A stretch of 64,000 nucleotides of DNA from Nitrospira sp. Lineage in GTDB: Bacteria > Nitrospirota > Nitrospiria > Nitrospirales > Nitrospiraceae. How positions within the stretch are numbered: position 1 is the first letter of the stretch; the number at the start of each line of letters is the position of its first letter. Position numbers and translations under genes: made by a program. This document shows, in pieces, positions 4,207-17,840 of the stretch. The notes beneath the pieces are model-generated. The model was not told the origin of the DNA, did not search any database, and worked only from the letters and a program-made list of their open reading frames with translations. The DNA is taken from contig CP054184.1 of the NCBI GenBank assembly GCA_015709715.1, positions 558,001-622,000 on the forward strand. The letters run 5' to 3'.

Positions 4207-4214
4207 AAATACCG

Positions 4215-4234: not shown

Positions 4235-4245
4235 CCTTTCCTTCC

Positions 4246-5176: not shown

Positions 5177-5180
5177 GCGT
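4968..5180. repeat. 16-bp direct repeat at two gene junctions
   Basis: TTCGCGTGCCATGCGT occurs exactly at 4968-4983 and 5165-5180, each time spanning the ATG of a minus-strand gene whose product begins MARE. It is probably the trace of a duplication or recombination at gene starts that shuffled the small genes here. Confidence 0.65.
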
Positions 5181-5452
5181 CACACCTCCCTTGCGGTGGT
5201 TGGGCTCGCCTCAGTCCCCTCTGCTGTGTTCGCAAGCTGTGTGCGCAAGCTGTCCACCTCCCGGCGGTACGACACCAGCATTCCTCGCAGCAACTCAATT
5301 TGTTCAAGGTACTCCCGCACCTGCCCCTGCAACGCTGCAATGGTCGCCTGGGCGTCGGCAAGTTGTTCTGACAGCACCTGCGCAATAGCTTGATAGCCCA
5401 CTATTGGCATCCCCTCATCAGCCCCTTTTTCAATATGGTGTGTTCGCTCCAC
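5180..5452 (-). CDS. Coiled-coil phage protein
   Basis: Product of 90 residues from a GTG at 5452 with a strong GGGGAGGG ribosome site. Residues about 25-75 show a heptad-like pattern of Leu/Ile/Val with Gln/Glu/Arg (SEQLADAQATIAALQGQVRE and onward), so it is probably a parallel coiled coil. Function is unknown; small coiled coils of this kind act as scaffolds or inhibitors. Tightly spaced with its neighbours. Confidence 0.6.
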   Translation of the reverse strand: MERTHHIEKGADEGMPIVGYQAIAQVLSEQLADAQATIAALQGQVREYLEQIELLRGMLVSYRREVDSLRTQLANTAEGTEASPTTAREV

Positions 5453-5453
5453 G

Positions 5454-5684
5454 TCACGCCCTCCCCTTCGTCAGCAGATCCAAGACACGCTGCAACTCAT
5501 TCAGTACTGAATCTTTCGCGCCAACCCTAAAGGTGTACTGGTCCTTTTTGATTCGATCTATTTCCCGCTTCACTACGCGCACCGCCCTCGCGTGCTCCTT
5601 GCGGAGCAGCCCGGCAATACACCCATCATCCTCATGGCCGTACTGCTGGGCGACGATCTTGTCCGCCCACTCCCGCCGCGCCAT
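5454..5684 (-). CDS. Small basic phage protein
   Basis: Product of 76 residues starting MARREWADKIVAQQYG. The ATG at 5684 shares its A with the upstream stop (TGATG), which supports this start over an upstream extension. It is helical and basic, with a hydrophobic C-terminal helix (SVLNELQRVLDLLTKG). No motif recognised. Confidence 0.55.
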   Translation of the reverse strand: MARREWADKIVAQQYGHEDDGCIAGLLRKEHARAVRVVKREIDRIKKDQYTFRVGAKDSVLNELQRVLDLLTKGRA

Positions 5685-5893
5685 CACGGCGCCTCGCGTT
5701 CTGGATGCTTTACTTTTCGCACCGATCCGTCTGTCCACACTTCATACTCTCGACCACGAGAATCTGTAAATCGTGACCCCGCAGCGTGGGCAATGACTCG
5801 CTTGTTACTTTTGTCCCTGACTGCTTGACAGATTTCATCTTCTGACACAGGCCCTTTGATAGTTTCAAAACCGCTCCATTTAATTTCCTGCAT
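5684..5893 (-). CDS. Small phage protein, function unknown
   Basis: Product of 69 residues starting MQEIKWSGFETIKGPVSED. A G-rich sequence precedes the ATG at 5893; the longer frame upstream is a shadow of the DUF2829 gene. The C-terminal half (RFTDSRGREYEVWTDGSVRKV) looks like a small all-beta fold. It lies directly downstream of the Tad2-like gene and probably shares its message. Confidence 0.55.
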   Translation of the reverse strand: MQEIKWSGFETIKGPVSEDEICQAVRDKSNKRVIAHAAGSRFTDSRGREYEVWTDGSVRKVKHPEREAP

Positions 5894-5924
5894 CCCACAC
5901 CCCCTTCTCGCCCTGCGCGGCGCG

Positions 5925-6203
5925 TTATCGAACAATCTCCCAATCGTTGGCCAGCATGTCCGTTTGGCTACAGAGCCACGGCACGATTTTCCCGTCTGCC
6001 GTGCGCATGTCGATGTGCGGGCAGTAGTTAACCTCGGTGCCTTCCTCGTAGATGCCAAGCAACGGGGGACGGTTCACTTTGAACGTCGATCCAGGCACCA
6101 GAAATAGGAACATGTTCTTTCCATTCCATCCGGCACGCGCTACCTTATGGCCCGCCTTGATCTCTTCGAGCGCACGACTGAAGTTGAAATTCTCGTTATC
6201 CAT
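5925..6203 (-). CDS. tad2: Tad2-family (DUF2829) anti-Thoeris protein
   Basis: Product of 92 residues with the diagnostic DUF2829 pattern: FSRALEEIKAGHKVARAGWNG (residues 8-27; key positions Ala, Gly and Trp), a beta segment FLFLVPGS, then the C-terminal WLCSQTDMLANDWEIV block. Family members characterised as Thoeris anti-defence 2 bind and sequester the glycocyclic ADP-ribose signal made by ThsB, preventing ThsA activation. Length and both motif blocks are complete, so the protein looks functional. It overlaps the upstream zinc-finger gene by 8 nt. Whether it binds a Thoeris signal here is inferred from family membership. Confidence 0.85.
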   Translation of the reverse strand: MDNENFNFSRALEEIKAGHKVARAGWNGKNMFLFLVPGSTFKVNRPPLLGIYEEGTEVNYCPHIDMRTADGKIVPWLCSQTDMLANDWEIVR

Positions 6204-6561
6204 GATTATCCTCCTTGGTTAATTGAACTTCCTGCGCCTGCTGCGCGAGTTGTATCAACCCACCACAATACGGGCAATACTTGTGTTCATTGTCCTTGAG
6301 CGTGCCGTCAGCCAAGCAATACGCATTCTTACAAGCCGTCTCGTAATAATCATCGATGTCGTCATACTTCCACGCACAGGACGCCACCCGCCCTAGGTGC
6401 CGCTTTAACCATGCCGCTATACGGTCTTGTGGGTCTTCGGTTTCACCTGTCTTGAGATTGGCTATAGTCGAAAACTTGATCTTTCGTCCAGACGTTAGCT
6501 CGATAAACGTCAGCAATTCATCCACCAGCTTACGCTCCCGCGTCCACCCCGCCGCAGTCAT
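6196..6561 (-). CDS. Zinc-finger phage protein
   Basis: Product of 121 residues. The C-terminal half has the pattern C-x-W...DDIDDYYETACKNAYCLADG...KYCPYCGG (about residues 62-101), a zinc-binding module I recognise from many small phage and prophage proteins of unknown role. The N-terminal half is helical. Start at 6561 overlaps the upstream stop as ATGA, and its own end overlaps the Tad2-family start by 8 nt, so the two are translationally coupled. Partnership with Tad2 is possible but untested. Confidence 0.7.
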   Translation of the reverse strand: MTAAGWTRERKLVDELLTFIELTSGRKIKFSTIANLKTGETEDPQDRIAAWLKRHLGRVASCAWKYDDIDDYYETACKNAYCLADGTLKDNEHKYCPYCGGLIQLAQQAQEVQLTKEDNHG

Positions 6562-6719
6562 GTGATCACCCGCCCTGTTAAAGCGTCTCTAATTTCTCCA
6601 CACCACTCACACTTGATGTACGGGTCGTCTCCCCAAAACAGCCAGCCGTGGCTCTTGCCGTCCACATGCTTTGTGCGAGGACAGCGCTCTGGATCGTTCA
6701 CAGCCCCCGCCTCAGTCAT
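6558..6719 (-). CDS. Short zinc-ribbon-like protein (53 residues)
   Basis: Reads MTEAGAVNDPERCPRTKHVD and continues to a CEWCG pair, ending VIT. Cys13 with His18 and the CEWC pair could hold one zinc. Both ends form ATGA overlaps with neighbouring genes (6716-6719 and 6558-6561), good support despite the small size. The start codon lies in a 16-bp sequence repeated at 6930-6945. Function is unknown. Confidence 0.6.
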   Translation of the reverse strand: MTEAGAVNDPERCPRTKHVDGKSHGWLFWGDDPYIKCEWCGEIRDALTGRVIT

Positions 6720-6898
6720 GCTTGCAATCCTTCAGGTGTCGCACGTAGTTCGGCCCCTGCAACAGTTGGGATCGTGTAGGGGTTGCCGAATAGTGCCGCC
6801 TCAAGTTGAGCGTTAATCACATCGACCGTTACAAAGGATGTGCCGCTATGACACCCATCCTGTGATAGGTGAACCTGCTTGATAATTAGCCTAACCAT
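6716..6898 (-). CDS. Small phage protein, function unknown
   Basis: Product of 60 residues starting MVRLIIKQVHLSQDGCHSGT. GGAGGG upstream supports the ATG at 6898. Beta-rich first half, helix (VINAQLEAALFG), then a C-terminal extension. It ends in an ATGA overlap with the 53-residue zinc protein. No family recognised. Confidence 0.55.
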   Translation of the reverse strand: MVRLIIKQVHLSQDGCHSGTSFVTVDVINAQLEAALFGNPYTIPTVAGAELRATPEGLQA

Positions 6899-6944
6899 TG
6901 GTTTGCCCTCCTCCTGCGCTATACACAAACCCCGCCTCAGTCAT
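6891..6944 (-). CDS. 17-codon mini-frame, remnant or leader peptide
   Basis: Starts in an ATGA overlap with the stop of the upstream gene, reads MTEAGFVYSAGGGQTNG and stops five bases below the next start codon. It contains the ribosome site of the next gene. It may be a remnant of a duplicated MTEAG gene start, or a short coupling frame that hands ribosomes on. Confidence 0.35.
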   Translation of the reverse strand: MTEAGFVYSAGGGQTNG

Positions 6945-7477
6945 GGGGTACCGGCCTTGCGTTCAGATACTTTCTGACGATGCCAAGCAATCTTGCGCTC
7001 AATGTCCTTGATAATACCTTCATGGTATCGAACGCTCCAGGTCTTGGACTTCAACTTCTGCTTGTTTGACGTGACTGACCTACGCATATTCTCCTCAACC
7101 AATTCCTTGGCACGCTCTACACACTCTTGAAGTGCTACGGCCTCAGATTCCCTCAAACACTTCCAGTTAGCTTGCCGCCCAGTTGTAGAAACCACGTACC
7201 ACTCATCGCTATGCATTAATGCCACGCCTGCAATTGTGAACGGTGTCACTCGGGGAGTGTACGAATAGTCATGAACAAATCCGCGAGGTCCATCAAACCC
7301 AAGCCCGCAGCCATCGCACTCCACTGACACGCGGTCATCATTCCCCAGGATAATTTCAACACGCTTCTTCCCGTAACAAACAGGACAAGGCACCTGGATC
7401 TTTTCGGGCTGATGCTCAGGTAGGTAATAGGTTTTCCCAATCTCAAATGGCGTTTTCATCACGCTCGCCTCACTCAT
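6941..7477 (-). CDS. Phage protein with a zinc-ribbon motif
   Basis: Product of 178 residues; Met7 is an alternative start. CPVC (about residues 31-34) and CDGCG (about 54-58) form a DnaJ-like zinc ribbon. A beta-rich region follows (residues 65-105), then a long basic helical C-terminus (about 115-178). The combination suggests nucleic-acid binding. It lies downstream of the VRR-NUC nuclease and overlaps it by 8 nt, so a DNA-processing role is plausible but not demonstrable. Confidence 0.6.
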   Translation of the reverse strand: MSEASVMKTPFEIGKTYYLPEHQPEKIQVPCPVCYGKKRVEIILGNDDRVSVECDGCGLGFDGPRGFVHDYSYTPRVTPFTIAGVALMHSDEWYVVSTTGRQANWKCLRESEAVALQECVERAKELVEENMRRSVTSNKQKLKSKTWSVRYHEGIIKDIERKIAWHRQKVSERKAGTP

Positions 7478-7898
7478 CCCGCGCTCCTTTCGTGGGGTCG
7501 TGATAGCCGCTCATGAACGTCACCACGTCGTCGACGCTGTACGCGACGAGGGTCCGGGCTTTTGCGGCGCCCCAGCGCGTCAGCTCCCGGTCCTGTAGCC
7601 GCGTGGTCTTACCCCCCGGCGCCTTCACCTCAATCAGAAAAGCCTGCCCTGCGTAGCAGCCGACAATGTCCGGCCATCCGCTGGAGAAGAAGCCCCCGGG
7701 GACTTTTCGGGCATAGCACCCGACGAGTCCGTTGAGGTACTTGAGGATGTTGCCGGTAATAATCGACTCCTTAACCGTTCCTTTGACTGTAGGAACCCGC
7801 TCTTGTTTCCCGCCCGGTACTGGTCGTCGCAATCCGACACGAGCTGACACACGTCCGCCGGCTGCTCCCCCTTCGTCCACTGTGCAATCTCCCTCCAT
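7470..7898 (-). CDS. VRR-NUC domain nuclease
   Basis: The C-terminal ~105 residues match the VRR-NUC (PD-(D/E)XK superfamily) pattern: VKESIITGNILKYLNGL, then GWPDIVGCYAGQAFLIEVKAP (Asp of SGWPD; Glu and Lys of IEVK), then GGKTTRLQDRELTRW. Such nucleases process Holliday-like or flap DNA, and phage copies often sit beside helicases as here. The ATG at 7898 has a strong GGAGGGCAGC ribosome site; the frame is open back to a GTG at 7958. The N-terminal ~35 residues overlap another frame and look non-native, so the true start or a frameshift near 7,790 is uncertain. Confidence 0.75.
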   Translation of the reverse strand: MEGDCTVDEGGAAGGRVSARVGLRRPVPGGKQERVPTVKGTVKESIITGNILKYLNGLVGCYARKVPGGFFSSGWPDIVGCYAGQAFLIEVKAPGGKTTRLQDRELTRWGAAKARTLVAYSVDDVVTFMSGYHDPTKGARDE

Positions 7899-7951
7899 GC
7901 TGCCCTCCAATCTAAGGTGAGTTCCGCTTTTTTCTGTGCCCACTTGCTCAT
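7634..7951 (-). CDS. Overlapping frame starting MSKWAQKK (uncertain)
   Basis: The first ~60 residues (MSKWAQKKAELTLDWRAAWR onward) look protein-like and Trp-rich. From about residue 65 the frame is an implausible Ser/Ala/Thr-rich sequence that is simply the VRR-NUC gene read in another frame. The simplest view is a short phage gene whose stop has been lost by a small indel, leaving two overlapping genes. It could also be the original N-terminus of the VRR-NUC protein, joined through a frameshift. Confidence 0.35.
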   Translation of the reverse strand: MSKWAQKKAELTLDWRAAWREIAQWTKGEQPADVCQLVSDCDDQYRAGNKSGFLQSKERLRSRLLPATSSSTSTDSSGAMPEKSPGASSPADGRTLSAATQGRLF

Positions 7952-7954
7952 GCG

Positions 7955-8413
7955 TCACCAGCCCGACAATAACGGTTGCATCTTTCCGCTCTCGTAGGCC
8001 TTGGCAATCATCGGCACCACATGCTCCGAAACCGTCTTCCCGTCAGGCATGACAATGTTCGCCATAAATTCATTCTCGAAGGTCGCAATCTTTGACTCGA
8101 CCGCTTCGAGCTTCGCTTTCACGACCAGGGCGAGGGATCGCCACAGCCTCCGCACTTCCTGCTCATAGAGACGCCGCGCATCGTCCTGTGAACGAGCCTT
8201 CCCATAGCGCGGATTGACCGTGAATCGCTTTTCCTGGATGTCCGGCAGCTCCAAGACGAACCGGACATAACGGCCATGGACAAAGAATTGAATCCGGGCA
8301 TCCTTTGACGACCATCCCGAGACGAATTGTTCCGCTCCATACTTCCGGAGCAATGTTTCAATTTCGGCCCGCGACCGCTCCACTGGCACGCTTGTATTCT
8401 CTGCAAAGCTCAT
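7955..8413 (-). CDS. Conserved phage protein, function unknown
   Basis: Product of 152 residues starting MSFAENTSVPVERSRAEIET. GGAGGG lies upstream and the ATGA overlaps the helicase stop. It shows the layout of a widespread phage family: AEIETLLRKYGAEQFVSGW (about residues 15-33), a beta-rich centre with RYVRFVLELPD, then RRLWRSLALVVKAKLEAVES and EFMANIVMPDG. No activity is assigned to this family. It typically sits among replication and recombination genes, as here between the UvrD-like helicase and the VRR-NUC nuclease. Confidence 0.75.
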   Translation of the reverse strand: MSFAENTSVPVERSRAEIETLLRKYGAEQFVSGWSSKDARIQFFVHGRYVRFVLELPDIQEKRFTVNPRYGKARSQDDARRLYEQEVRRLWRSLALVVKAKLEAVESKIATFENEFMANIVMPDGKTVSEHVVPMIAKAYESGKMQPLLSGW

Positions 8414-10902
8414 AAATACCCTCCTATGCTCAGTCCCACCGGTTGCGCCCAATACAGGGCTTCTTTTGCTCTCGTCATCCCGACATAAAACATTCTCCGT
8501 ACGGCATCCTGTGCCTCCCCCGGCGACGTCCATTCCCGATACCCCGCCGGCGAGAGGTCCGGAAACAGGACCACAATGTCGGCCTCACCCCCTTTGACAG
8601 AATTGTGCACGACGGCCCCGCCAGAGATGTAATGGTGGTGCGGAAGCACCTCAAGGCTAAAAACATCCCCGGCGAACGGCTCGCACAAAACAGTGACTTG
8701 ATGCCACGTCGGCTTATTGCCTCCTTTCTTGCGGCAACAGAACGCATCCTGGACAACGGGGATCTCCATGTATTGGTCGATCACGTTTGCCGCTGCCGTT
8801 AAGAACATGCCGCGCTGATTCGTTCTCCCGCGCCCTCGTGTGCACAGCGGTTCGCCTTCTATGAGCCCACGATCTCGCAATAGCTGCATCGCCCGATCCG
8901 CAACGCACTCAGATATGAGCGTGTCGTGAATGGTATGGAGTTCCTCCGACTTGAATAATCTGGACTTGCAGGCCTGAAATGTGAGCCCTGGTAATCCATA
9001 TCGACATTGAATCTGCATCTCGGCAATGTACGCCTCACGCGCCGTTTCATAGACCCCCAGAATCCATCCCGCGTCAGCCTGCTCCGTCGACATACGGCCT
9101 TTAAGACCTCCGGACGCATACGGCCGTTTACCCGATGTGCACATGCCGACTCTCCACCAATTCCCGCGCCGCATGAGGTAGACAATCCACTTATTGAAAA
9201 AGGATTCCGTGAAGCGCACCTGCATCCGATGTGTCGGCGTTACGCGCGTCCGGCTCCCCCTTGTGGTGATTGTCAGCAGGGGTCCATCGTAAGGATTCCT
9301 TGCAACCACAAAGGGGTACCCCATCTCCTTCCTCGGCATGCCTTTCTTGCTGTTTCGTCCTCCCCATACGAGCCGGTTGCAGTTGTCCATATAACTGGCA
9401 AGCCTGTGCTTGTTTGGATCGAGTCGCCCGATTGGCACATACCCCTCAGTAGTGAGCACTGGTTCATCTCCGGGGGAGCAATGAATCGTACCCAGGATGA
9501 TTTGCGGCGCCTTCGTCAGAGCCGCCGCGCCTCGAGATTCGATCACATTGCAGGCGTAGCGCATCGGCCGTTCATAGGTGCTCAAGAGATGTCCCCGCAA
9601 CCACTCCAAATCGCCCGCCGTCACGCGCTCCGCCGTCTCGTCCCCCACAAACCACTTCTCAAGGTCCTCCGTCTCCACCAGCGCCTTCATGGTCTCATCG
9701 GCTTCGGCCTTCCGTCGCATGTCCGTCTTGGCTCCATGCCGGAACACGCCGTCCGATTCGAGGCACCCCGCCCAGGCCCACAGGTCGCGGTACGTCCACC
9801 AGGATTCGCCGCGCGCCACCTTCCCGAACGCCAGCACCCGCTCCGAGGCGCCGATCGTGCCCGCCTTGGTATGCAGCGGATTCCAGTCCCCGCGTGTCCG
9901 TCTGTACGGGTTATGAAACGGCATGCCCCAGTCCCGCAGCTGCCGCTTGAGGGGATCCAGGAAGAAGGAGCAGGACGCTAGGAAGGCCACGGTCTTGCCT
10001 TCGCCCAGCCAGGCTTCGAGCTGATCCTTGATCGGTGCCGGGTATTGGTAATTCAGGTAGATGCTATCGACTTCGCCCTGAAAGGCTCTGGGCTTGTAGT
10101 CCACCTGGAACCGGTGAGGCATTTGCTCAATCCACTTGACCGCCGCCCCATGCACCGCCACCGGGACACGGTAGGATTGTCCGAGTACCCGTATCTGGTC
10201 CGCCGGCACAGCCGGATACAGGAAGGCGTCAGGCGTGGCTCCTTTGAACGTATAAATGCACTGATCCGGGTCTCCGACCAAATACAGCCGTTCGCAACTT
10301 TCGCCCCACCAGCGGGCAAGATGGAGTTCCAGGGGGCTAAAGTCTTGCACCTCATCCAGGAAGAACGCCGCGGCCTCATGCGGGATCGGAAGCCGTTGGG
10401 TCACGCACAGGTCGATCAGGTCGGTAAAATCCATCGTGAACGTCTGCGACTTGAAATCCTTCCAGTCCTCCGCGAAGGCCTGGACTCGCATCGGCCAGGC
10501 ATCTGGCTCTATGCGCAGCCCACGCAGCCGATTGAGTTCCTGGAGGAGGAGATCGCCCTCCTTCGTCTCGCCCCCTTCAATGTGTCCATAGGGGTCGTCT
10601 ATATCGCTGGCAATGCCACCAAATCCCCAGGAGGGATGCTCTGCGTTCCAATCCTTCAGGAGATTGCCGGCAACCAGCTTCGGCCGATCCAATGCCCGAT
10701 AACACAGGGCATGCAGCGTGCCGACCTGATCGTCATTCAGTGGGAGCTGCCGGGATACCAGTTCCTTCGCCGCCGCCCTCGTGAAGCTCGAGACCAGCAC
10801 CGCCTCGCTCCCGTAGTCCCGGCAGGCTGTGGCAATCAGCCCCGATAATGCTGTAGTTTTCCCGGCATTAGGTGCCAGGAGGGCCAAACATTCTGTATTC
10901 AC
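8410..10902 (-). CDS. UvrD/Rep-like superfamily 1 helicase interrupted by an intein
   Basis: From a GTG at 10902 (GTGA overlap with the HNH gene) the precursor is 830 residues. The helicase part is residues 1-474 and 768-830, giving 537 residues after splicing. Motifs: P-loop PNAGKT (11-16, lacking the usual first Gly), SFTRAAAKEL (39-48), Walker B DEVQD (183-187), GDPDQ (210-214), GQSYRVP (241-247), motif V GTIH|SVKGGEAD (split by the intein), and VGMTRAKEALY near the C-terminus. It would unwind DNA during phage replication or recombination. A longer frame to 11397 exists, but its extra 165 residues are a shadow of the HNH gene. Confidence 0.85.
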   Translation of the reverse strand: MNTECLALLAPNAGKTTALSGLIATACRDYGSEAVLVSSFTRAAAKELVSRQLPLNDDQVGTLHALCYRALDRPKLVAGNLLKDWNAEHPSWGFGGIASDIDDPYGHIEGGETKEGDLLLQELNRLRGLRIEPDAWPMRVQAFAEDWKDFKSQTFTMDFTDLIDLCVTQRLPIPHEAAAFFLDEVQDFSPLELHLARWWGESCERLYLVGDPDQCIYTFKGATPDAFLYPAVPADQIRVLGQSYRVPVAVHGAAVKWIEQMPHRFQVDYKPRAFQGEVDSIYLNYQYPAPIKDQLEAWLGEGKTVAFLASCSFFLDPLKRQLRDWGMPFHNPYRRTRGDWNPLHTKAGTIGASERVLAFGKVARGESWWTYRDLWAWAGCLESDGVFRHGAKTDMRRKAEADETMKALVETEDLEKWFVGDETAERVTAGDLEWLRGHLLSTYERPMRYACNVIESRGAAALTKAPQIILGTIHCSPGDEPVLTTEGYVPIGRLDPNKHRLASYMDNCNRLVWGGRNSKKGMPRKEMGYPFVVARNPYDGPLLTITTRGSRTRVTPTHRMQVRFTESFFNKWIVYLMRRGNWWRVGMCTSGKRPYASGGLKGRMSTEQADAGWILGVYETAREAYIAEMQIQCRYGLPGLTFQACKSRLFKSEELHTIHDTLISECVADRAMQLLRDRGLIEGEPLCTRGRGRTNQRGMFLTAAANVIDQYMEIPVVQDAFCCRKKGGNKPTWHQVTVLCEPFAGDVFSLEVLPHHHYISGGAVVHNSVKGGEADIVVLFPDLSPAGYREWTSPGEAQDAVRRMFYVGMTRAKEALYWAQPVGLSIGGYL
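8602..9480 (-). mobile_element. Intein (293 residues) in helicase motif V
   Basis: The intein runs from Cys1 (CSPGDEPVLTTEGYVPIG, block A) to the terminal VVHN, followed by extein Ser. Block B is RVTPTHRMQV (TxxH at intein residues 81-84); block F/G is GDVFSLEVLPHHHYISGGAVVHN. Removing it restores GTIH-SVKGGEAD, the conserved motif V, exactly in frame. The ~180 residues between the splicing blocks (WILGVYETAREAYIAEMQ, YGLPGLTF) look like a homing-endonuclease-type insertion of a kind I cannot place. All splice-junction residues are present, so it should be active. Confidence 0.9.
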
Positions 10903-11336
10903 GCCTTCCCGACAACAGAACCACCCCCCTTCGATGCAAAGCGCGCGAGGTTGTGAAGTCGCGCGTGTTGAGATTGACTGGATAGCACTTCTAAATTTTC
11001 CGGCCTGTTGTCGCGCTTGTCCCCGTTTAAGTGGTGGACTATCTCTCCTGAACGTAGAGGCCTTCCGATCGTTCGTTGCGCGACTAAGCGATGTTGATGT
11101 TTTCCGTCCTGCTTGATGTATGACAAACCGAGGCCTCTTCCTCGCTGCATGTCCCCGCGCTTTTTCGCAGATTGCTTGGAAATTTCGGCATTGCGAGAAG
11201 TATCGAGACATGCTCGACGTTGACATTCCAGGTCGCAATATTTCTGCATCCGCTTCTTGTAAGGAGGGGTGAAATACCCTCCACACCATGAACAGTTTCT
11301 TTCCTTTGCTAAGCGAGGGCTTCTCATTCCGCCCAT
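10899..11336 (-). CDS. HNH homing endonuclease
   Basis: Product of 145 residues. The N-terminal zinc module is CSWCGG (residues 15-20) with CDLEC (about 34-38). The C-terminal HNH core is GRPLRSGEIVHHLNGDKRDN (about 91-110) followed by RPENLEVLSSQSQHARLH. The core is nearly the same as in the HNH gene at 16064-16444. The stop overlaps the helicase GTG start (GTGA), placing the endonuclease directly before the helicase P-loop, which begins only ten residues into that gene. It is probably a free-standing homing endonuclease that targets this locus. Confidence 0.85.
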   Translation of the reverse strand: MGGMRSPRLAKERNCSWCGGYFTPPYKKRMQKYCDLECQRRACLDTSRNAEISKQSAKKRGDMQRGRGLGLSYIKQDGKHQHRLVAQRTIGRPLRSGEIVHHLNGDKRDNRPENLEVLSSQSQHARLHNLARFASKGGGSVVGKA

Positions 11337-11676
11337 ACATGTCTCCTTTCTTGGTTTCTGTACTCATTCGACACCTAATAAATTCAACAGGTTGCAAGCC
11401 CTCTGACTCACTCTGACTCAGCGGACTTTCCTAATTGATTCAATGAGTTGAGATCAAAAAATGCCGACTTGAGTACAGGAGTCAGAGAAATTAAATTCTG
11501 CATCGTGCGTCCGGCCAATTTTTTTCTCTGACTCACTGACTCTTTGTACTCAACTCTGGCATGAATCTTGATATTAAGAGAGAATTGCATAAGTCGTTGA
11601 TTTCATTCATTTCACAGGTACAGTACTTGTACGGCTCTTTGGAGTCAGAGCCGAGTACTCGGTTTTTCCTCTGTAC
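11337..11676. repeat. Iteron-like intergenic region, candidate replication origin
   Basis: A 340-bp gap between the HNH/helicase genes and the primase gene. CTCTGACTCA occurs at 11401-11410, 11411-11420 and 11526-11535, CTGACTC at 11536-11542, and inverted GAGTCAGAG at 11479-11487 and 11642-11650. A second family, GAGTACA/TGTACTC, occurs at 11471, 11545 and 11673, plus the palindrome CCGAGTACTCGG at 11651-11662. A/T-rich stretches (11430-11500) lie between. It also carries operator-like site 4. This layout fits a replication origin or a complex control region. Confidence 0.5.
11618..11632. promoter_or_regulatory. Operator-like site 4 (GTACAGTACTTGTAC)
   Basis: Contains the exact GTACAGTAC core at 11618-11626, followed by a further GTAC half-site. 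It lies in the iteron-rich gap downstream of the primase gene and upstream of the HNH and helicase genes on the minus strand, so it could regulate their transcription. Confidence 0.5.
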
Positions 11677-13308
11677 TCACGCATGGACCTTCCAAATGCT
11701 CCGCTTGGTGCGTCCGCCGCGGTTGGTTTTGACGTTCTTCCGCTCATACTCGTACCCCAGCTTGGTCAGCTGCATGGTCAACTCTTGCGCCGTGATCCGT
11801 TCCTGCATCTGCCCCAGCAGGAACCTCCGGAACCCCTCAGCGACAATGTGGACCTCGCCCTTGAACTTGAACGGTCGATAGTTGAAGGCGGCTTTTTCCC
11901 ATTGGTCCTCTGGCTCCACACCCTCCGAGAGGTACATTTCGAGCCAGTTCTCCATTCTGCCTTTGTTGGTCCCGATTTCTACGTCGACGTTTTCCACGGC
12001 CAGAAAGAGCCGTGTCAGGATTTCGTGCCACTTCTCCGCCTTAAATGTCGGGATCCGCACATCGGTATGATCGAAGATCAGCCGGCGAAAACGGGTCTGT
12101 GAATCGAAGTCGTCAATGCTCGCTGCCGCAACCTTCCGTCCGTTGACCTGCAGTTCATAGCTGTTCGTTTCACTGCGGAAGCGAACCAGTTTCGTAATCT
12201 CCACGCCCAGGTTGATCGACAGCAGCGCCAGGATCTCCGCCGGGTCCTTGGCGATATGCTCCGGAAGGGCCTTTCCCTTCTCGAGGTCCTCGTTCAACTG
12301 CCGTCGTTCTTCGACACCCTTCCCGGCAATGGCCAGGTCGAGCGTCCGCTTGTAGTAGTCCTTCCGGAGCTTCAGATCCTCGCCGTGTTTCCGGCGATGT
12401 GCCACGAGGAGATTGACCACCTCTTGTGCCGTCCACCCAGCCGCAAGGGCCCTGGTCGCCAGACTCATGTCGTAGCTGCTGGCTGACTGGTCTTGCAGAT
12501 CCTTCCGGGCATGTTGCCAGGAGAGCCGAAATGTCGTGTCGACTTCGCAGAGCAGCAGAAACTTTTCCGCCGGCGGTTCCGCTGCCGCATTCAGATCGAA
12601 CGTCCACTCAAGGGAAACCGCAGCCGGCTTGTCTCCGTCCGGCTCTGTTGTCAGGTAGTCTTTGAAGTCCGACGGGTTGTACCGCGAGTCGGTGAGGCTC
12701 AGGAGCTTGGTTCGCTTTGGGACTCCCTTCCGGTTCCAGGTCCCCGGCAGGCGCATGACTCGCGTAATGTCGCCCACCTGATCCGCGTCCCAGCCCTTCG
12801 CCTTGGCTTTGGCGCGCAGCGTGGAGCACCAGCCCTTGGTCAGGGCTTCGGCGTCCGCCCGATCCTGCTCGCTGTCAAAGATCCAGGGTTCCCGAAACAG
12901 CCACCAGGCCTGCAGGCCCCGACCACTGTGGATCACCGCCGATGGCGGCAAGCCCATGTCGGCAATGAGCTGCATCGCCTCCGCTTCGGTCGGCGGGAGA
13001 TTTGGTTTCTTGTGTTCGGCGCCGTAATCGATATCCAGCCAGACCCCCGGGATGGCCACCACGTCGGCCTTCTCACCCCGGAGCGTGGGCCCGAGGTTCG
13101 CACCTCGGAGCCCACAGCCGATGTAGACATTTTCTTTCGCGGCCCAGGTGTCGATCGCCGCCAGCTCATCGGCGCCGATTTCGGAGACCCAGCTGGACCG
13201 CTTGGACGGCGCGCCCCAAAAGAGGCACCACCGTCCATCGAGGTCCGGCCACAGCGCCGACAGAAACCGCGAGAGGTCGCTATTCTCCGTCTGCTGGGTC
13301 GGCATCAA
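11677..13308 (-). CDS. Archaeo-eukaryotic-type primase (AEP superfamily)
   Basis: Product of 543 residues. The N-terminal ~220 residues carry the AEP/RepB-like primase motifs: WLDIDYG (metal-binding Asp92 and Asp94), HSGRGLQAWW (127-136) and DITRVMRLPGTWNRK (180-194). The enzyme would make primers, and possibly extend them, for phage DNA replication. The C-terminal half (about 330-543) is helical with a winged-helix-like end and no Walker motifs, so the helicase function must come from the separate helicase genes. The start overlaps the upstream gene by 29 nt. Located next to the candidate origin, as expected for an initiator primase. Confidence 0.75.
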   Translation of the reverse strand: MMPTQQTENSDLSRFLSALWPDLDGRWCLFWGAPSKRSSWVSEIGADELAAIDTWAAKENVYIGCGLRGANLGPTLRGEKADVVAIPGVWLDIDYGAEHKKPNLPPTEAEAMQLIADMGLPPSAVIHSGRGLQAWWLFREPWIFDSEQDRADAEALTKGWCSTLRAKAKAKGWDADQVGDITRVMRLPGTWNRKGVPKRTKLLSLTDSRYNPSDFKDYLTTEPDGDKPAAVSLEWTFDLNAAAEPPAEKFLLLCEVDTTFRLSWQHARKDLQDQSASSYDMSLATRALAAGWTAQEVVNLLVAHRRKHGEDLKLRKDYYKRTLDLAIAGKGVEERRQLNEDLEKGKALPEHIAKDPAEILALLSINLGVEITKLVRFRSETNSYELQVNGRKVAAASIDDFDSQTRFRRLIFDHTDVRIPTFKAEKWHEILTRLFLAVENVDVEIGTNKGRMENWLEMYLSEGVEPEDQWEKAAFNYRPFKFKGEVHIVAEGFRRFLLGQMQERITAQELTMQLTKLGYEYERKNVKTNRGGRTKRSIWKVHA

Positions 13309-14038
13309 TCACCGTCGCCTGTGAGAACATTTCACGCATGGCTTTGCCGATGGTTTCGACCTTCGCGAGTTCATCCGCCTCGAGATTCCGTCCCCGCGTC
13401 AGCGAGGCCACGGAATACTCATTCTTGGGGCCCTGCTTCTTCTCAAGCCGCAGCTGTGTGGTCACATGCCGGAACGACAGCCCGTTATTGACGAGGCGCA
13501 GGAAATACTGCCGGGAATTTTTCAGCGAGGTTGCCGGCAGGGACACCAGTAGGGGCATGATGTTTTCCTGGCGCAGGAACAGCATGATGCGTTTCTGCTT
13601 GCAGGCTTGGCCGGCCGCAGGTTTGCCGGCCTCATCGACCGCCGTCCCGAATTGGGCCATGGGACAGGTCGCACAGTTTCCGCCGTGCATGGCCGCAATG
13701 GTCCCGATCCCGGTGAGTCCGTCATCTGACCGGCAATCTGGAGGCTTGTTCCCACCGTCCTTGCTGGCCCAGTAGCCGCGAGTATCCTTGAAGTGCAGGA
13801 CAATCCCCTCTACAGCTTTCATGGGCTCGCTGCCGTCTAGGGTCGGCACTTCCCACACGGTCATGCCGCCCGTTGGGACCTTGATCTTGTCCAGGTCGGA
13901 GACCTTGAGCCCTTGCGTTCCGACGCTGTCCTTGAGAATGGCCGCAAGTTTCGCCGCCGGCACGGCCAGTGCCTTATATTCATTCTTCACGAGTTCCGGC
14001 ACGTTCGCCGTTGCGACACTGGTCTCTTTCTTCGCCAT
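13280..14038 (-). CDS. Phage protein with a cysteine cluster, possible ssDNA-binding role
   Basis: Product of 252 residues. A conserved-looking cysteine cluster occupies the centre (PPDC about residue 101, GGNCATCPM about 119-127, ACKQKR about 146-151) and may bind zinc or an Fe-S cluster. After it comes a beta-rich region (IMPLLVSLPATS, RHVTTQLRLEKK) that could be an OB-fold. The acidic C-terminal tail (DADPADGE) is typical of ssDNA-binding proteins. It is encoded directly upstream of the primase, which fits a replication accessory, but the role is inferred. The promoter region carries operator-like site 5. Confidence 0.55.
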   Translation of the reverse strand: MAKKETSVATANVPELVKNEYKALAVPAAKLAAILKDSVGTQGLKVSDLDKIKVPTGGMTVWEVPTLDGSEPMKAVEGIVLHFKDTRGYWASKDGGNKPPDCRSDDGLTGIGTIAAMHGGNCATCPMAQFGTAVDEAGKPAAGQACKQKRIMLFLRQENIMPLLVSLPATSLKNSRQYFLRLVNNGLSFRHVTTQLRLEKKQGPKNEYSVASLTRGRNLEADELAKVETIGKAMREMFSQATVIDADPADGE

Positions 14039-14060
14039 GGCCCATCCTTTCTGAGTGATG

Positions 14061-14074
14061 TACCGATACAGTAC
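14061..14074. promoter_or_regulatory. Operator-like site 5 (GTACCGATACAGTAC)
   Basis: ATACAGTAC at 14066-14074 differs from the core GTACAGTAC by one base, with a GTAC half-site to its left at 14060-14063. It lies in the 51-bp gap upstream of the 252-residue gene that opens the primase transcription unit. Confidence 0.45.
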
Positions 14075-14089
14075 ACCGGGGTTAAAAAA

Positions 14090-14533
14090 TTAGCCCTTCT
14101 TGCACCGCAAGGAGAACTGCTCCGTGATTTTCAGCGTGCCCCGCAGAGAGGCCGGGAATGTCGCCAGCAGTTCTTCCGGTTTCACCTTGGCGCCGGCAAA
14201 CTTCTCTTCTTCGATTTCCCGCACCCAGGACGACAACCGTTGATGATTGATCGCCTCTTTCACGAGATCGCCGAGGCCCTCTGACTTCAGGGATTCCATG
14301 AGCAACATGCTGGACCCGTCGACCGCGCCCGCGCGCAGGTCCCGGCGAATATAGACCACCTGCCCGCCCTTGGACTTCATCGACTGCATCCCGGCATTCT
14401 CGAACCGCTCCATGATTTGCGTCTCCAATTTGGCCATTTGGGACTTGATCGCTTCCAAGTCCTCATCCGCCTTCTTCTTCTTTTCGTCCAGCTCAATAAA
14501 CTGATTCACAAGGTCTGCTGTTGTCGCTGCCAT
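14090..14533 (-). CDS. Coiled-coil phage replication-region protein
   Basis: Product of 147 residues starting MAATTADLVNQFIELDEKKK. GGAGGAGTC upstream supports the ATG at 14533. Residues about 10-45 are a charged coiled coil; then GMQSMKSKGGQVVYIRRDL (about 48-66), and SEGLGDLVKEAINHQRLSSWVRE (about 82-104). This pattern recurs in phage proteins of unknown function located next to SNF2-type helicases, as here. The short basic C-terminus contains one Cys. No activity can be assigned. Confidence 0.65.
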   Translation of the reverse strand: MAATTADLVNQFIELDEKKKKADEDLEAIKSQMAKLETQIMERFENAGMQSMKSKGGQVVYIRRDLRAGAVDGSSMLLMESLKSEGLGDLVKEAINHQRLSSWVREIEEEKFAGAKVKPEELLATFPASLRGTLKITEQFSLRCKKG

Positions 14534-14553
14534 GACTCCTCCTTTTTTCGCGC

Positions 14554-14718
14554 CTACACCGATGCCTCTTCGACGAACCGATTCCATTCATTGATCTGGT
14601 CACGTCCGCATCCCGCGCAGAGCCGCATCCCGCGCACGTGGTACAGTTCATTATCCTTCACGCGGCACAGACAGACCGGGCATTGCGAGAGTCGATTATC
14701 CTCCCCCATCTCGTTCAT
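14554..14718 (-). CDS. Small zinc-ribbon protein
   Basis: Product of 54 residues starting MNEMGEDNRLSQCPVCLCRV. CPVC and CAGC pairs make a complete four-Cys zinc ribbon. AAAGGAGTG precedes the ATG, which overlaps the helicase stop as ATGA. The longer upstream frame is a shadow of the helicase gene. It is probably co-translated with the SNF2-type helicase; function unknown. Confidence 0.65.
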   Translation of the reverse strand: MNEMGEDNRLSQCPVCLCRVKDNELYHVRGMRLCAGCGRDQINEWNRFVEEASV

Positions 14719-16037
14719 GCCTTCACTCCTTTCAACACGCTCTCGACCACGTCCTGGCGTGCCTCGAGCGCCTTGTAGACCGCCTCGTCGACCGTGTCCC
14801 GTGCAACCAGATGGAAATAGGTCACATTCCTGTTTTGGCCTGGCCTGTGCGTACGCTTCCGCGCCTGGAGATACTCGCCCAGAGAGAACCCGAGCGAGTA
14901 GAAGACGCAATATCGCGCCCGCACAAGATTAATCCCGACACCGCCGCTCTGGATCTGGACCGCAAGAACTGGCGCCGCACCCGATTGCCAAGCAGCAAGT
15001 TCGTTTTTGCGTCCAGACAATTCGAGGGAGGCCCGCCCAAGAGCAGCGGCCACCGTATGCACGGCGTCGAGGTCGTGGTGAAATCGGCAGAAGATAACGA
15101 TGGGTTCTTCATCGTTCAGGTCCTCCATAAGATCGGCCAGCGCGTCCTGCTTGGCCGAATCCACTTGTACGAGTTCTCCATCGACGCCCGTTCCGACGTC
15201 ATGGTCCTTCTTTGCCCAGCCGCTGGCAATTTGCTGCAATCGCAGCAGTCGCGTCAGGGCATTGCTCGCTGTGACCGTCCCATCGGCTACCCCCACCACA
15301 AACTCATCTTTCAGGGTCTTATAGAGCCGCATGGCATAGGCCGACAGCCGCACAGGCCGGACCACGTCGACGGCTTCCGGCAGGTTTTGCACATCCACCG
15401 ATGTGACCCGGTAGGCGATGGAATAGAATTTCTTCTGCAGATCGTCCTGGTTTTCGTATCCCAGGACTTGATGATTGCCGTAGCCACCCATCTTGGCGTA
15501 GCGTGCCCGGAATGCCGTGAAGCTGGTCCCAAAGATCCCCTTGTCCAGGAATCGGTACTGCGCGTACACATCGAGGGGACTGTGAGGCATCGGGGTCCCT
15601 GTCAGGCACAACCGGTTCGGCGTGACATCGCCCAGGCGGGACACGAACATAGCCGCTTTCCCGCCAGGGGCTTTGATCCGGTGGGACTCGTCACAAATCA
15701 CGGCATCCCAGCCGGCCCGCAGGAGGGTATTGCTCATGCCGTCCCTCCAAGCCGCGTCATAGTTCAGAATGACGATCGCCGGTGTGGACCGTGCCCGCTG
15801 CAGCGTCAGGAACGTCGCCAGGGCCTCACTGCGCTGCTTCGTGGTTCCATCATCGAGGGGGAGGCATCCCACTGGCCGCGCACCATGCCGCTCGAACTCC
15901 GCCGGCCACACTTGGACCACTGACTTAGGACACAGAATCAAGGTGCGCATCCATCCTTTATTGATAACAATATCGACCGCAATTTTTGACTTGCGTTCAG
16001 CCCGTCCCCATGTCCAGCGCGAGCATAACGGCTCCAC
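14715..16037 (-). CDS. SNF2-type helicase, C-terminal part of a split gene
   Basis: Residues from K16 on are a normal SNF2 ATPase: KSKIAVDIV, LILCPKSVVQVW, CDESH (DEAH-like box, 115-119), LTGTPMPHS, and in lobe 2 QSGGVGINLV and QARKRTHRPGQ. The first 15 residues (from a GTG at 16037) are not native. The missing P-loop start, AVMLALDMGTG, is encoded in another frame at 16032-16000, and then a 7-nt insertion TGAACGC (15999-15993) breaks the frame before the Walker lysine codon (15992-15990). Either the gene is broken, the 7 nt is a sequence error, or expression needs frameshifting. Partner: the N-terminal fragment at 16446-16796. Confidence 0.75.
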   Translation of the reverse strand: MEPLCSRWTWGRAERKSKIAVDIVINKGWMRTLILCPKSVVQVWPAEFERHGARPVGCLPLDDGTTKQRSEALATFLTLQRARSTPAIVILNYDAAWRDGMSNTLLRAGWDAVICDESHRIKAPGGKAAMFVSRLGDVTPNRLCLTGTPMPHSPLDVYAQYRFLDKGIFGTSFTAFRARYAKMGGYGNHQVLGYENQDDLQKKFYSIAYRVTSVDVQNLPEAVDVVRPVRLSAYAMRLYKTLKDEFVVGVADGTVTASNALTRLLRLQQIASGWAKKDHDVGTGVDGELVQVDSAKQDALADLMEDLNDEEPIVIFCRFHHDLDAVHTVAAALGRASLELSGRKNELAAWQSGAAPVLAVQIQSGGVGINLVRARYCVFYSLGFSLGEYLQARKRTHRPGQNRNVTYFHLVARDTVDEAVYKALEARQDVVESVLKGVKA

Positions 16038-16454
16038 GCGGACGGGGACGGGTAGACGCCTCCTTAACGTCCATGGAAGTGATGCCTGGCATGTTCAGCC
16101 CTCGTCATCAATTGAAGGTTTTCCGGTCGGTTGTCTCGCTTATCTTCGTTTTTATGATGCACGATTTCATCTGATCGAAGCGGCCGTCCGATGATGCGCT
16201 CCATCACCACACGATGCTCATGCCGCCCATAGCACTTTCGATAGGTCTTCCGCTCTCCCCGATCAATATGCGCCGCGCGAATCTTGTCCTTAAATCGTCT
16301 CCCGACCTCGGCGTTGCGCCGAGGGTTATTGTGCTTTTTCAGCCAGCACTGGCGGGAGCAGTAGAGCCGTGGCGTCCTCTCCGGATAGGACCAGGCCGTA
16401 AATTCACGCTGGCAGGTTGGGCACATGGTCGTAATCTTCGGCACCTTACAGACC
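16033..16454 (-). mobile_element. 422-bp HNH-carrying insertion splitting the SNF2 helicase gene
   Basis: The N-terminal fragment ends FAIDMLGG and then L-stop; the natural continuation (GCC GTT ATG, AVMLALDMGTG) resumes at 16032. A GGA codon lies at both edges (16457-16455 and 16035-16033), and removing the 422 bp between them joins the coding frame. Almost the whole insert is the HNH gene (381 bp), leaving too little sequence for a group I intron core. It is therefore best read as a free-standing homing endonuclease gene inserted into the helicase gene. Confidence 0.6.
16064..16444 (-). CDS. HNH homing endonuclease inside the SNF2 helicase gene
   Basis: Product of 126 residues from a GTG at 16444, with GGGAGG inside the end of the helicase fragment serving as ribosome site. 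Zinc module CPTCQREF (residues 8-15) and YCSRQCW (about 28-34). HNH core GRPLRSDEIVHHKNEDKRDN (about 87-106) with RPENLQLMTRAEHARHH at the end. It is clearly related to the HNH protein at 10899-11336. The stop codon is followed at once by AAGGAGG, which may help re-initiate on the helicase C-terminal part. Confidence 0.85.
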   Translation of the reverse strand: MPKITTMCPTCQREFTAWSYPERTPRLYCSRQCWLKKHNNPRRNAEVGRRFKDKIRAAHIDRGERKTYRKCYGRHEHRVVMERIIGRPLRSDEIVHHKNEDKRDNRPENLQLMTRAEHARHHFHGR

Positions 16455-16796
16455 TCCCAGCATATCGATCGCGAACCAGAATGCCCGCGCCTGATGTGGC
16501 CAGGGCGTGGTTTTGGTCTGCGGAATGTTCGGCAGGTTTTCCGCCGTCTTCAACTCGGCCGCTTTGGCGATCCGCTCTGCCTCCACGAGCAGCGCCGCGG
16601 CATGATCGCTCCACGTGCTGGTTTCCGAAGGAATCGCGTCAAAGACCGCCCGCGCAGCATGCGGCGTCGGCGGGTAGACCCAGACATGCAGCTCCTTGTT
16701 CCAGCGCGCGCCGGGAACCCCTTTCAGGGCATCCTTCAGCGCAAACGGCGCCCGGACGGCCAGCTTGTCATCGGTGAGATACACATGGCAGAGCAT
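16446..16796 (-). CDS. SNF2-type helicase, N-terminal fragment
   Basis: Product of 116 residues. The N-terminal ~65 residues form a small alpha/beta substrate-binding-like module (GARWNKELHVWVYPPTPHAA). The end, TTPWPHQARAFWFAIDMLGG, is the Q-motif-like segment that precedes the P-loop in SNF2 helicases. The frame then stops two codons later inside the HNH insertion. Together with the C-terminal part it would make a ~550-residue SNF2 protein, a usual size for phage members. Alone it has no ATPase site. Confidence 0.75.
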   Translation of the reverse strand: MLCHVYLTDDKLAVRAPFALKDALKGVPGARWNKELHVWVYPPTPHAARAVFDAIPSETSTWSDHAAALLVEAERIAKAAELKTAENLPNIPQTKTTPWPHQARAFWFAIDMLGGL

Positions 16797-16798
16797 AG

Positions 16799-16906
16799 CT
16801 AGTTCTCCTCGGCGCGACGTGCCGCCTCAATGCGGTCCAGCATCCAGGCCACGCCCCCCACCCACCCAAGGGCAAATCCGAGCCCCGCGACAATGATCAT
16901 TCGCAT
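16799..16906 (-). CDS. 35-residue membrane protein
   Basis: Reads MRMIIVAGLGFALGWVGGVA followed by MLDRIEAARRAEEN: one transmembrane helix (residues 3-21) with a charged C-terminal tail. A G-rich ribosome site lies upstream of the ATG at 16906, and the stop is two bases from the helicase fragment start. Small single-span proteins are common near phage regulatory regions; role unknown. Confidence 0.5.
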   Translation of the reverse strand: MRMIIVAGLGFALGWVGGVAWMLDRIEAARRAEEN

Positions 16907-16914
16907 ACGTCCCC

Positions 16915-17079
16915 CTACTTCCTGGCCTTCAGCCAAGCCGCGATATACCGAGCCTGCAGGACCCTCTGCGGAAGGCCTCGCTGTCGACTGTTCCGCGCTG
17001 TCCGGCAGCAATGCGCGGCTCCATAGAACAAAACCCCCAGCATGGCCGCGTCCATGATCCAGCCGAGATAGATCAACAT
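16915..17079 (-). CDS. 54-residue membrane-associated protein
   Basis: Starts MLIYLGWIMDAAMLGVLFYG, one predicted transmembrane helix, followed by a CC pair and a basic C-terminal half (RNSRQRGLPQRVLQARYIAA). GGAGG upstream supports the ATG at 17079; the longer frame is a shadow. It sits directly downstream of the ribbon-helix-helix-like gene and is likely expressed from the same promoter. Confidence 0.5.
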   Translation of the reverse strand: MLIYLGWIMDAAMLGVLFYGAAHCCRTARNSRQRGLPQRVLQARYIAAWLKARK

Positions 17080-17090
17080 GGGAACCTCCG

Positions 17091-17285
17091 TCAGGACTTG
17101 GTGGGCGCACTCGGTTTCAGGCCGGCCTCTTGCTCCAACAGCGGGAGCCCCAGCTCGAGACAGCGGATAATCTGCGCGCTCACCGTCCATCGCGGGCGCG
17201 CCTTCTGGACGCGCTTCATGCGCCGATGTACCGATGGATCGGGATACCCAACAACGGGCTTCGAGAATGCGGGATTGTGCGGCAT
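17091..17285 (-). CDS. Ribbon-helix-helix-like DNA-binding protein (leftward regulator)
   Basis: Product of 64 residues. A short beta-like segment (KPVVGY, 9-14) is followed by a basic helix (SVHRRMKRVQKAR), a turn (PRWTVS) and a second helix (AQIIRCLELGLPLLEQ), the layout of Arc/MetJ-type ribbon-helix-helix repressors. AGGAGG precedes the ATG. It is the first gene read from the promoter that contains the perfect 19-bp palindrome, so it may repress its own promoter and the leftward operon, or act as a Cro-like antagonist. The fold assignment is by pattern only. Confidence 0.55.
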   Translation of the reverse strand: MPHNPAFSKPVVGYPDPSVHRRMKRVQKARPRWTVSAQIIRCLELGLPLLEQEAGLKPSAPTKS

Positions 17286-17310
17286 AACGACCTCCTACTG
17301 TATGGTGCTG

Positions 17311-17329
17311 TACTTGTACAGTACAAGTA
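17311..17329. promoter_or_regulatory. Operator site 6: perfect 19-bp palindrome
   Basis: TACTTGTAC-A-GTACAAGTA is a perfect inverted repeat. It covers most of the spacer and all of the -10 box of the leftward promoter, so a bound dimer would block transcription of the whole minus-strand early region. It is the best copy of a motif (core GTACAGTAC) that recurs at 2755, 2868, 3367, 11618 and 14066. Confidence 0.75.
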
Positions 17330-17341
17330 TGATACTGTCAA
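17313..17341 (-). promoter_or_regulatory. Predicted leftward early promoter
   Basis: On the minus strand: TTGACA (17341-17336, perfect -35), a 17-nt spacer, and TACAAG (17318-17313) as -10. It drives the ribbon-helix-helix-like gene and probably the genes beyond. The -10 and spacer are buried in the palindrome at 17311-17329. Confidence 0.6.
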
Positions 17342-17379
17342 GCACAAAAATACACGGATTGATTTTGTAGAAAAAGAGC

Positions 17380-17408
17380 TGGACGCGGAACTATTCCGGT
17401 ACTATACT
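17380..17408 (+). promoter_or_regulatory. Predicted rightward promoter
   Basis: TGGACG (17380-17385), a 17-nt spacer, and TATACT (17403-17408), placed 37 bp above the ATG at 17445, with AAAGGAGG as ribosome site at 17431-17438. GTAC half-sites lie at 17400-17403 and 17424-17427. Together with the leftward promoter it forms a divergent control region of about 100 bp. Confidence 0.5.
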
Positions 17409-17444
17409 TTCACTGTAAGCGCAGTACGAGAAAGGAGGTGATGT

Positions 17445-17705
17445 ATGATGGCAACAGCCAGCGTGAAGAAGTCGGGCCGGTCGAGTGAGCGCGTGAAGCG
17501 CGTTCACGATCTTGACCAGGTGACGGCGTGGGTCAACCCGCGTCTGGGTATCAAGGAGCGGTTGAAGCGCATTAAGGAGATTGATCAACGGCAGTCGGAA
17601 AGCCGAGTGGCCGAGGATGCGCTCTTGATGTATTTGCCGATCCTGGAGCAACGCATTTTGCCCAGCTATGGAGTGCCCGCCCGGGAGAAGAAGCCCGGGG
17701 CCTAG
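17445..17705 (+). CDS. Ribbon-helix-helix-like protein (rightward, candidate repressor)
   Basis: Product of 86 residues; Met2 may be the true start given the ribosome-site spacing. Basic N-terminus, a beta-like stretch (VTAWVNPRL, 27-35), a helix (GIKERLKRIKEID), a turn (QRQSES) and a second helix (RVAEDALLMYLPILEQRI). This is again an Arc/CopG-like layout and resembles the leftward protein in SxSxxxExxLxxxLPxLE spacing. It is the only gene of the element read toward the tRNA and lies at its very end, where a lysogeny repressor would be expected to be transcribed. Identity is inferred. Confidence 0.5.
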   Translation: MMATASVKKSGRSSERVKRVHDLDQVTAWVNPRLGIKERLKRIKEIDQRQSESRVAEDALLMYLPILEQRILPSYGVPAREKKPGA

Positions 17706-17763
17706 TTGGGGAGATACCGAGGGTAGCGCAGTAGGAGTGTGACTGGGGAGGGAGAACAGGAGT

Positions 17764-17840
17764 TGGTCGGGGCGAGAGGATTTGAACCTCTGACATCCTG
17801 CTCCCAAAGCAGGCGCGCTACCAGGCTGCGCTACGCCCCG
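17764..17840 (-). tRNA. tRNA-Pro(UGG)
   Basis: 77 nt including an encoded CCA. Acceptor stem CGGGGCG/CGCCCCG, D-arm GCGC...GCGC, anticodon arm CCTGC-TTTGGGA-GCAGG with anticodon TGG, T-arm AGAGG-TTCAAAT-CCTCT. The 3' end faces the phage element to the left, so this is the probable attachment site. The 5' end overlaps the last ten bases of rdgB. Confidence 0.97.

Follow-up and report, generated by a model that had tools for sequence, protein, structure and literature searches.

A divergent pair of ribbon-helix-helix genes next to the attachment site of a Nitrospira prophage as candidate lysogeny switch with dispersed predicted operators

A complete 45.2-kb prophage integrated in a tRNA-Pro gene of Nitrospira sp. 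(contig CP054184.1) carries two small, divergently transcribed genes for related ribbon-helix-helix (RHH) proteins, and this pair probably serves a temperate tailed phage as its immunity/lysogeny switch. The reading draws on gene layout, att repeats, protein homology, RHH-type profiles, promoter-operator geometry in two relatives and dispersed repeats, while binding, repression, the role of each protein and the uncoupling of the integrase are what we infer.

The prophage is flanked by 51-bp att repeats, identical at 50/51 positions, and its right-hand portion occupies the beginning of the window, i.e. the whole stretch of 64 kb that was analyzed (Table 1). As had been put forward in a preliminary description of this DNA, the gene pair resides at the end of the element facing the attachment tRNA, a tRNA-Pro gene on the minus strand that holds the 51-bp repeat of its 3' end. 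Genes for a tyrosine integrase, tail, portal, major head and large terminase proteins lie between the att copies, and UvrD- and SNF2-type helicases and a primase-like protein are also encoded. All recognizable phage genes are located on the minus strand except the integrase gene and the 86-aa gene. Downstream of the 64-aa gene follow small, apparently membrane-associated peptides, an HNH nuclease and the SNF2 helicase. The circular order is lytic operon, 64-aa gene, switch, 86-aa gene, attP and integrase, with the last three collinear on the plus strand in the circular form and about 250 bp from the stop of the 86-aa gene to the start of the integrase gene. Because of this circular gene order, integration parts the integrase from the plus-strand promoter, a separation that would matter for regulation.

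Table 1. Positions of the switch, the att sites and the predicted operators (window positions unless a contig is named)
Feature	Position	Strand	Remark
tRNA-Pro(TGG), integration site	17764..17840	-	
attR, 51-bp att core inside tRNA-Pro	17763..17813	.	
attL copy of tRNA-Pro 3' end	G000:C1:530574-530624		50/51 match to attR
Right-hand portion of prophage	1..17762	.	prophage start outside window at G000:C1:530574
Tyrosine integrase	G000:C1:530768-531715	+	just inside attL, opposite end from switch
64-aa RHH-family gene	17091..17285	-	ORF; first gene of leftward (lytic) operon; Cro/Arc position
86-aa RHH-family gene	17445..17705	+	ORF; between switch and att; CI/Mnt position
Lytic promoter	17313..17341	-	TTGACA 17341-17336, 17-bp spacer, TACAAG 17318-17313
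Promoter of 86-aa gene	17380..17408	+	TGGACG-17-TATACT
Palindromic operator (predicted) TACTTGTACAGTACAAGTA	17311..17329	.	perfect 19-bp, 9-bp arms; spans part of spacer and -10 of lytic promoter
Overlapping GTAC-n-GTAC-nn-GTAC operator boxes (predicted)	17305..17335	.	motif count
Degenerate inverted operator copy (12/14)	17404..17417	.	overlaps -10 of plus-strand promoter
Dispersed operator (predicted) GTACTGTATCGGTAC	14060..14074	.	gap before 252-aa gene
Dispersed operator (predicted) GTACAGTACTTGTAC	11618..11637	.	between primase-like and UvrD-like genes
Dispersed operator (predicted) GTACAGTACGGGTAC	3370..3384	.	
Weaker operator (predicted) GTATTGTACAAGTAG	2754..2768	.	just upstream of small-terminase-like gene (2053-2727)

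Some further ORFs of the prophage and its relatives can be assigned. A 92-aa ORF (window 5925-6203, minus strand) is probably Tad2-like (Thoeris anti-defence; Pfam PF11195, E 3e-27), the match stemming from a scan of small prophage ORFs, and an 82-aa ORF (window 1772-2020, minus strand) probably encodes an Acb2/Tad1 hairpin protein (anti-CBASS/anti-Thoeris; Pfam PF24729, E 1e-17); in both cases the ORF was assigned to the match by reading the sequence. The UvrD-like helicase (window 8410-11397, minus strand) is apparently split by an intein-like insert (CSPGDEPVL...HHHYISGGAVVHNS), and the ORF for its homologue in the related genome G066 comprises just 540 aa. Adjoining the integrase gene, an ORF at L002 13662-14102 (minus strand) probably specifies a dATP/dGTP diphosphohydrolase (PF18909, E 2e-25; assigned by inference).

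At the switch itself, two small divergent genes, a TTGACA promoter and a perfect 19-bp palindrome are found exactly where the preliminary description had placed them. The palindrome had been said to cover both spacer and -10 of this promoter; it does so for the -10 and only in part for the spacer. It is the sole palindrome across the 64-kb window with arms of at least 9 bp and a loop of 0-1, and an equally strong one appeared in 1/500 dinucleotide shuffles of the 159-bp intergenic region. TACAAG is a weak -10 sequence (4/6), and the L065 homologue of the 64-aa gene (see below) has an upstream TTGACA at equal spacing. The 86-aa gene is directly preceded by a ribosome-binding site (GGAGGTGA). 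The inverted operator copy at its promoter is not significant alone, with 36/300 shuffles being equally good.

A search with the primase-like protein led to a prophage in the same genus (G066) with a 68% identical primase-like protein. It adjoins a tRNA-Pro gene, a 49-bp copy of which recurs at the contig end; the other att copy sits exactly at the end of contig C74, and an integrase orthologous to that of the 45.2-kb prophage was looked for in G066 and not found. At the position equivalent to the 64-aa/86-aa pair, G066 features two divergent small RHH-type genes. The 69-aa product of the minus-strand gene (L011:7966-8175) is a homologue of the 86-aa protein (BLASTP 33% over 61 aa, E 4e-6 in a single comparison), and the plus-strand gene encodes 52 aa with weak Arc/RHH_1 matches. 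Two viral contigs, L065 and L066, were found by search with the 252-aa protein family. L065 encodes a 66-aa protein (6474-6674) at the same position, 48% identical to the 64-aa protein (E 3e-12), and L066 one of 52 aa that shares 81% identity with the 52-aa protein of G066; all four phages have a lytic-side protein, of 64, 66 or 52 aa. In L065 and L066 the lytic-side gene directly faces the integrase-like gene across the switch, and a search of these two records for a second RHH protein from the 86-aa family was negative. Given the lack of a counterpart there, the 86-aa protein may be dispensable; the two records may also be incomplete.

Neither the 64-aa nor the 86-aa protein was found by single-sequence searches of other genomes of the family. 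The two-sequence 86/69-aa profile had G066 as its sole match within the family, phylum-wide matches being weak and at chance level. Scanning viral contigs with the 64-aa protein yielded nothing, nor did comparison of both proteins and their homologues with 50,697 named phage records. A viral hit for the 86-aa protein (L005) proved to be a chance match inside an 1844-aa ORF, and no such switch was found in the sequence portions covered of L007, a primase relative, and L067, a distant relative of the 252-aa protein. In L007 (1-10501), titled uncultured Nitrosospira, a 58% identical primase-like gene occurs with different integrases and other neighbours, a context which suggests that the replication gene moves between element types.

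By sequence profiles, both switch proteins belong to RHH-type families, as had been supposed from their layout, the 64-aa protein through the 86/69-aa family. The 86/69-aa profile matches RHH proteins of related (host) genomes, with 0/60 column shuffles as good, and the profile of the 52-aa pair matches host RHH proteins, again with 0/60 shuffles as good. The 64/66-aa pair profile has no direct match in the host RHH set and is linked via the 86-aa family only (hhalign E 1.4e-5 against the 86/69-aa family, 0/60 shuffles); the 86/69-aa profile also picks up the 66-aa protein of L065 (E 0.006). When single sequences were compared with a smaller RHH profile, shuffles were as good in 0/2000 cases for the 52-aa protein, 2/2000 for an 89-aa ORF of G066, 7/2000 for the 86-aa protein and 188/2000 for the 64-aa protein, which alone is no better than chance against RHH. 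PHROG gave weak Arc/CopG matches for the G066 and L066 proteins. For the 64-aa and 86-aa proteins, there was no RHH match in Pfam, all matches in Pfam, PHROG and NCBIfam were at chance level with no HTH match for either, and PDB sequence searches returned nothing. Single-sequence AlphaFold monomers were of low confidence (pLDDT 63 and 66 for the 64-aa and the 86-aa protein, respectively); the models contain helices at residues 17-29 and 35-53 in the former and 12-28 and 36-70 in the latter and no strand, and a Foldseek comparison of the low-confidence 64-aa model with the PDB gave no significant match. Going by the profiles, the 86-aa protein can be regarded as an RHH protein with good confidence and the 64-aa protein as one by its linkage to the 86-aa family.

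The relatives also inform about the operators. In G066, each of the two divergent promoters has AGTRCYAGTRCT in its spacer, with a further copy behind the 52-aa gene, and the aligned region of L066 has corresponding sites, one of them with a mismatch. The site directly behind the 52-aa gene is found in both phages (L011:8566 in G066, L066:6155). Between -35 and -10 of its Arc-side operon promoter G066 carries TAGTGCTAGTACTA, in the same way as the palindrome is placed in the 45.2-kb prophage, and the operator core GTAC-n-GTAC-nn-GTAC of the latter resembles the GTRC-nn-GTRC of G066. Operators shared by both promoters are significant in G066 and degenerate in the 45.2-kb prophage. The cI/cro geometry originally ascribed to the locus thus stands in so far as the arrangement recurs in G066 with different operators and the same promoter-operator geometry; a symmetrical cI/cro reading is unproven, as L065 and L066 have an RHH protein on the lytic side only.

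A second palindrome occurs in both divergent leaders of G066 (GCCATGCnnnTGCATGGC, L011 8217-8236 and 8372-8392) and of L066 (CGCCTTGC..GCAAGGCG-like, L066 5808-5827 and 5963-5982). In G066 the inverted copies are 19/21 alike, a degree of similarity reached by 0/300 shuffles. This element could be the operator of another protein or an RNA hairpin; a general role as its ligand is excluded for RHH proteins of the 86-aa family because L066 lacks one.

Predicted operators recur outside the switch. For motifs that were read off the switch and the first repeats and then counted, with shuffle tests uncorrected for that choice, and at most one mismatch allowed, GTACnGTACnnGTAC forms four clusters in the prophage (3370, 11618, 14060 and 17305-17324) compared to 0.02 in shuffles, and AGTRCTAGTRCT forms seven clusters in 27 kb of G066 (0.13 in shuffles) and 11 in the 48.6-kb L066 record (0.15 in shuffles). 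With two mismatches, GTACnGTACnnGTAC covers 2749-2768 too. No clusters of GTACnGTACnnGTAC were found in about 58 kb of host DNA of this genome and none of AGTRCTAGTRCT in the 45.2-kb prophage, L065 or host DNA; dispersed copies of the promoter repeat of L065 were looked for in that contig, and none were found. According to rough gene calls, 3/5 sites in the 45.2-kb prophage, 6/8 in G066 and 6/11 in L066 are located in gaps between genes (the p values for the in-gap excess in the three phages are 0.007, 0.0006 and 0.0008). Some sites are syntenic and differ in sequence: the gap before the 252/260-aa gene has one in the 45.2-kb prophage and in L066, and so does the start of the small-terminase-like gene in the 45.2-kb prophage and of its G066 orthologue. 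The operator AGTRCTAGTRCT is common to G066 and L066, and its dispersed sites are in part syntenic between the two.

In the switch that we propose, the lytic promoter would first drive expression of the 64-aa protein and next that of the early operon. Since the operator is located between -35 and -10, an RHH protein bound there would block RNA polymerase. The opposite promoter would drive the 86-aa protein, and in the circular phage the transcript would run on through attP into the integrase gene. Integration would cut this transcript, such that the 86-aa gene keeps its promoter and the integrase is moved 45 kb off. The extra operator copies, several of them in intergenic gaps, may allow the repressor to silence the prophage at several points in a stoperator-like manner. 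The 86-aa protein would take the part of CI or Mnt and the 64-aa protein that of Cro or Arc. It is a tentative, though quite conceivable extension that Arc-type RHH proteins are the only lysogeny repressors of this phage family, acting with dispersed operators and an attP placement that lets integration separate the integrase from its promoter.

THSA-485A, a distant Thermoanaerobacterium phage, shares SNF2 and 252-aa-like genes with the 45.2-kb prophage. In the same slot at the SNF2-helicase early module it contains an HTH Cro-type gene heading the lytic operon, a divergent HTH CI-type gene, a DUF955 gene and a recombinase gene behind the CI-side gene. This is in keeping with the earlier notion of Arc-like proteins standing in for HTH repressors. 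The likeness to cI/cro consists in two regulators that diverge where the early lytic operon begins, predicted operators common to both and an integrase behind the CI-side gene; the difference is that THSA-485A uses HTH proteins, whereas the 45.2-kb prophage uses RHH proteins, and no DUF955/ImmA-like protease was found adjoining the pair.

By analogy with its positional equivalent in THSA-485A, the location of the 86-aa protein favours a function as maintenance repressor. Conservation of the lytic-side protein and the motif shared by G066 and L066 favour this protein as the putative ligand of the dispersed sites, and both roles can hold together, as with Arc and Mnt. Possible as well, if rather doubtful, is a simpler arrangement, in which the lytic-side protein (64 aa; 52 aa in G066 and L066; 66 aa in L065) is the master repressor and the 86/69-aa protein an accessory added in two lineages. 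This master repressor would bind the dispersed sites as well as the promoters on both sides, its own and that of the integrase side, permitting its own expression while stopping transcription further on. That the lytic-side protein alone is present in all four phages, that G066 and L066 share an 81% identical version together with AGTRCTAGTRCT sites even though L066 has no second RHH protein, and that both carry an operator directly behind the 52-aa gene all speak for such a single master. However, it would be unusual for a maintenance repressor to be encoded first in the very operon that it represses, the counterpart of the CI position of THSA-485A is the 86-aa gene, and the two viral contigs, possibly incomplete, include one (L065) without dispersed copies of its promoter repeat.

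In phage P22, arc and mnt are transcribed divergently, and the operator bound by Arc sits in the promoter of the arc operon, between -35 and -10. Together with ant they form immunity region I, a secondary immunity region with an RHH repressor pair (PMC2629481). The 45.2-kb prophage and G066 resemble this region by two small divergent RHH genes and a predicted operator between -35 and -10 of the Arc-side promoter. With this known pair as precedent, the genes described here could make up a secondary module for the control of an antirepressor-like or early gene, with lysogeny maintained by another repressor that went unrecognized. We consider this unlikely. The P22 pair controls an antirepressor within a late operon, whereas the pair in the 45.2-kb prophage heads the entire early operon beside att. 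In P22, ant is located downstream of arc; no ant-like gene follows the 64-aa gene, and the pair is therefore not classed as an immI region. Two further differences from P22 are that copies of the predicted operator occur at other places in the phage and that the second RHH gene is followed by attP and the integrase gene. Furthermore, no CI-like gene was recognized among the prophage ORFs that were scanned, the sole clear HTH among the small ones being that of the small-terminase-like protein, and the L065 and L066 records are devoid of an HTH_3 gene. Very improbable, in our view, is a reading without a lysis/lysogeny switch, in which the RHH genes at the end of the phage are accessory or autoregulated antitoxin-like genes and the palindrome serves autoregulation only. 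Weak RelB/ParD-type family matches of the G066 proteins would agree with such genes, but no toxin-like partner was noticed, the two RHH genes stand divergently at the start of the early operon, the operators are dispersed through the phage and the positional equivalent in THSA-485A is HTH-based.

The proposed RHH switch shares features with two mycobacteriophage systems. In Cluster A phages (L5), the repressor target is repeated genome-wide, mostly away from promoters, and the motif is phage-specific (PMC6550527). The operators described here are likewise repeated through the genome, phage-specific and found in gaps, a tendency weaker in the 45.2-kb prophage (3/5) than in G066 (6/8). They differ in that the protein family is another one and the sites are fewer and near-palindromic; the block of elongation is an L5-type feature that could apply here by analogy. 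A limited literature search linking 'stoperator' with 'ribbon-helix-helix' retrieved nothing. For phage BPs, attP is described as located at the repressor gene and integration as changing the action of the repressor-integrase region (PMC4557955). The att placement in the 45.2-kb prophage would similarly let integration alter the repressor-integrase region, but here the RHH gene does not contain attP, which follows it at a distance of about 58 bp, and the protein would be unaltered by integration.

A divergent RHH repressor pair is not new in itself, as exemplified by P22 arc/mnt (PMC2629481). New are the proposed use of an RHH pair as the only recognizable immunity switch, the dispersed predicted operators and an attP between the second RHH gene and the integrase. 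Knowledge of phage RHH repressors comes for the most part from P22 and its secondary arc/mnt region. If our interpretation is true, a primary RHH switch in the slot of an HTH switch would clearly exemplify how one lysis/lysogeny circuit can be replaced by a non-orthologous one, and stoperator-style immunity would, through the dispersed operators, gain a protein fold that is new to it. The arrangement would also provide a signature for prophage finders where a CI-like gene is absent.
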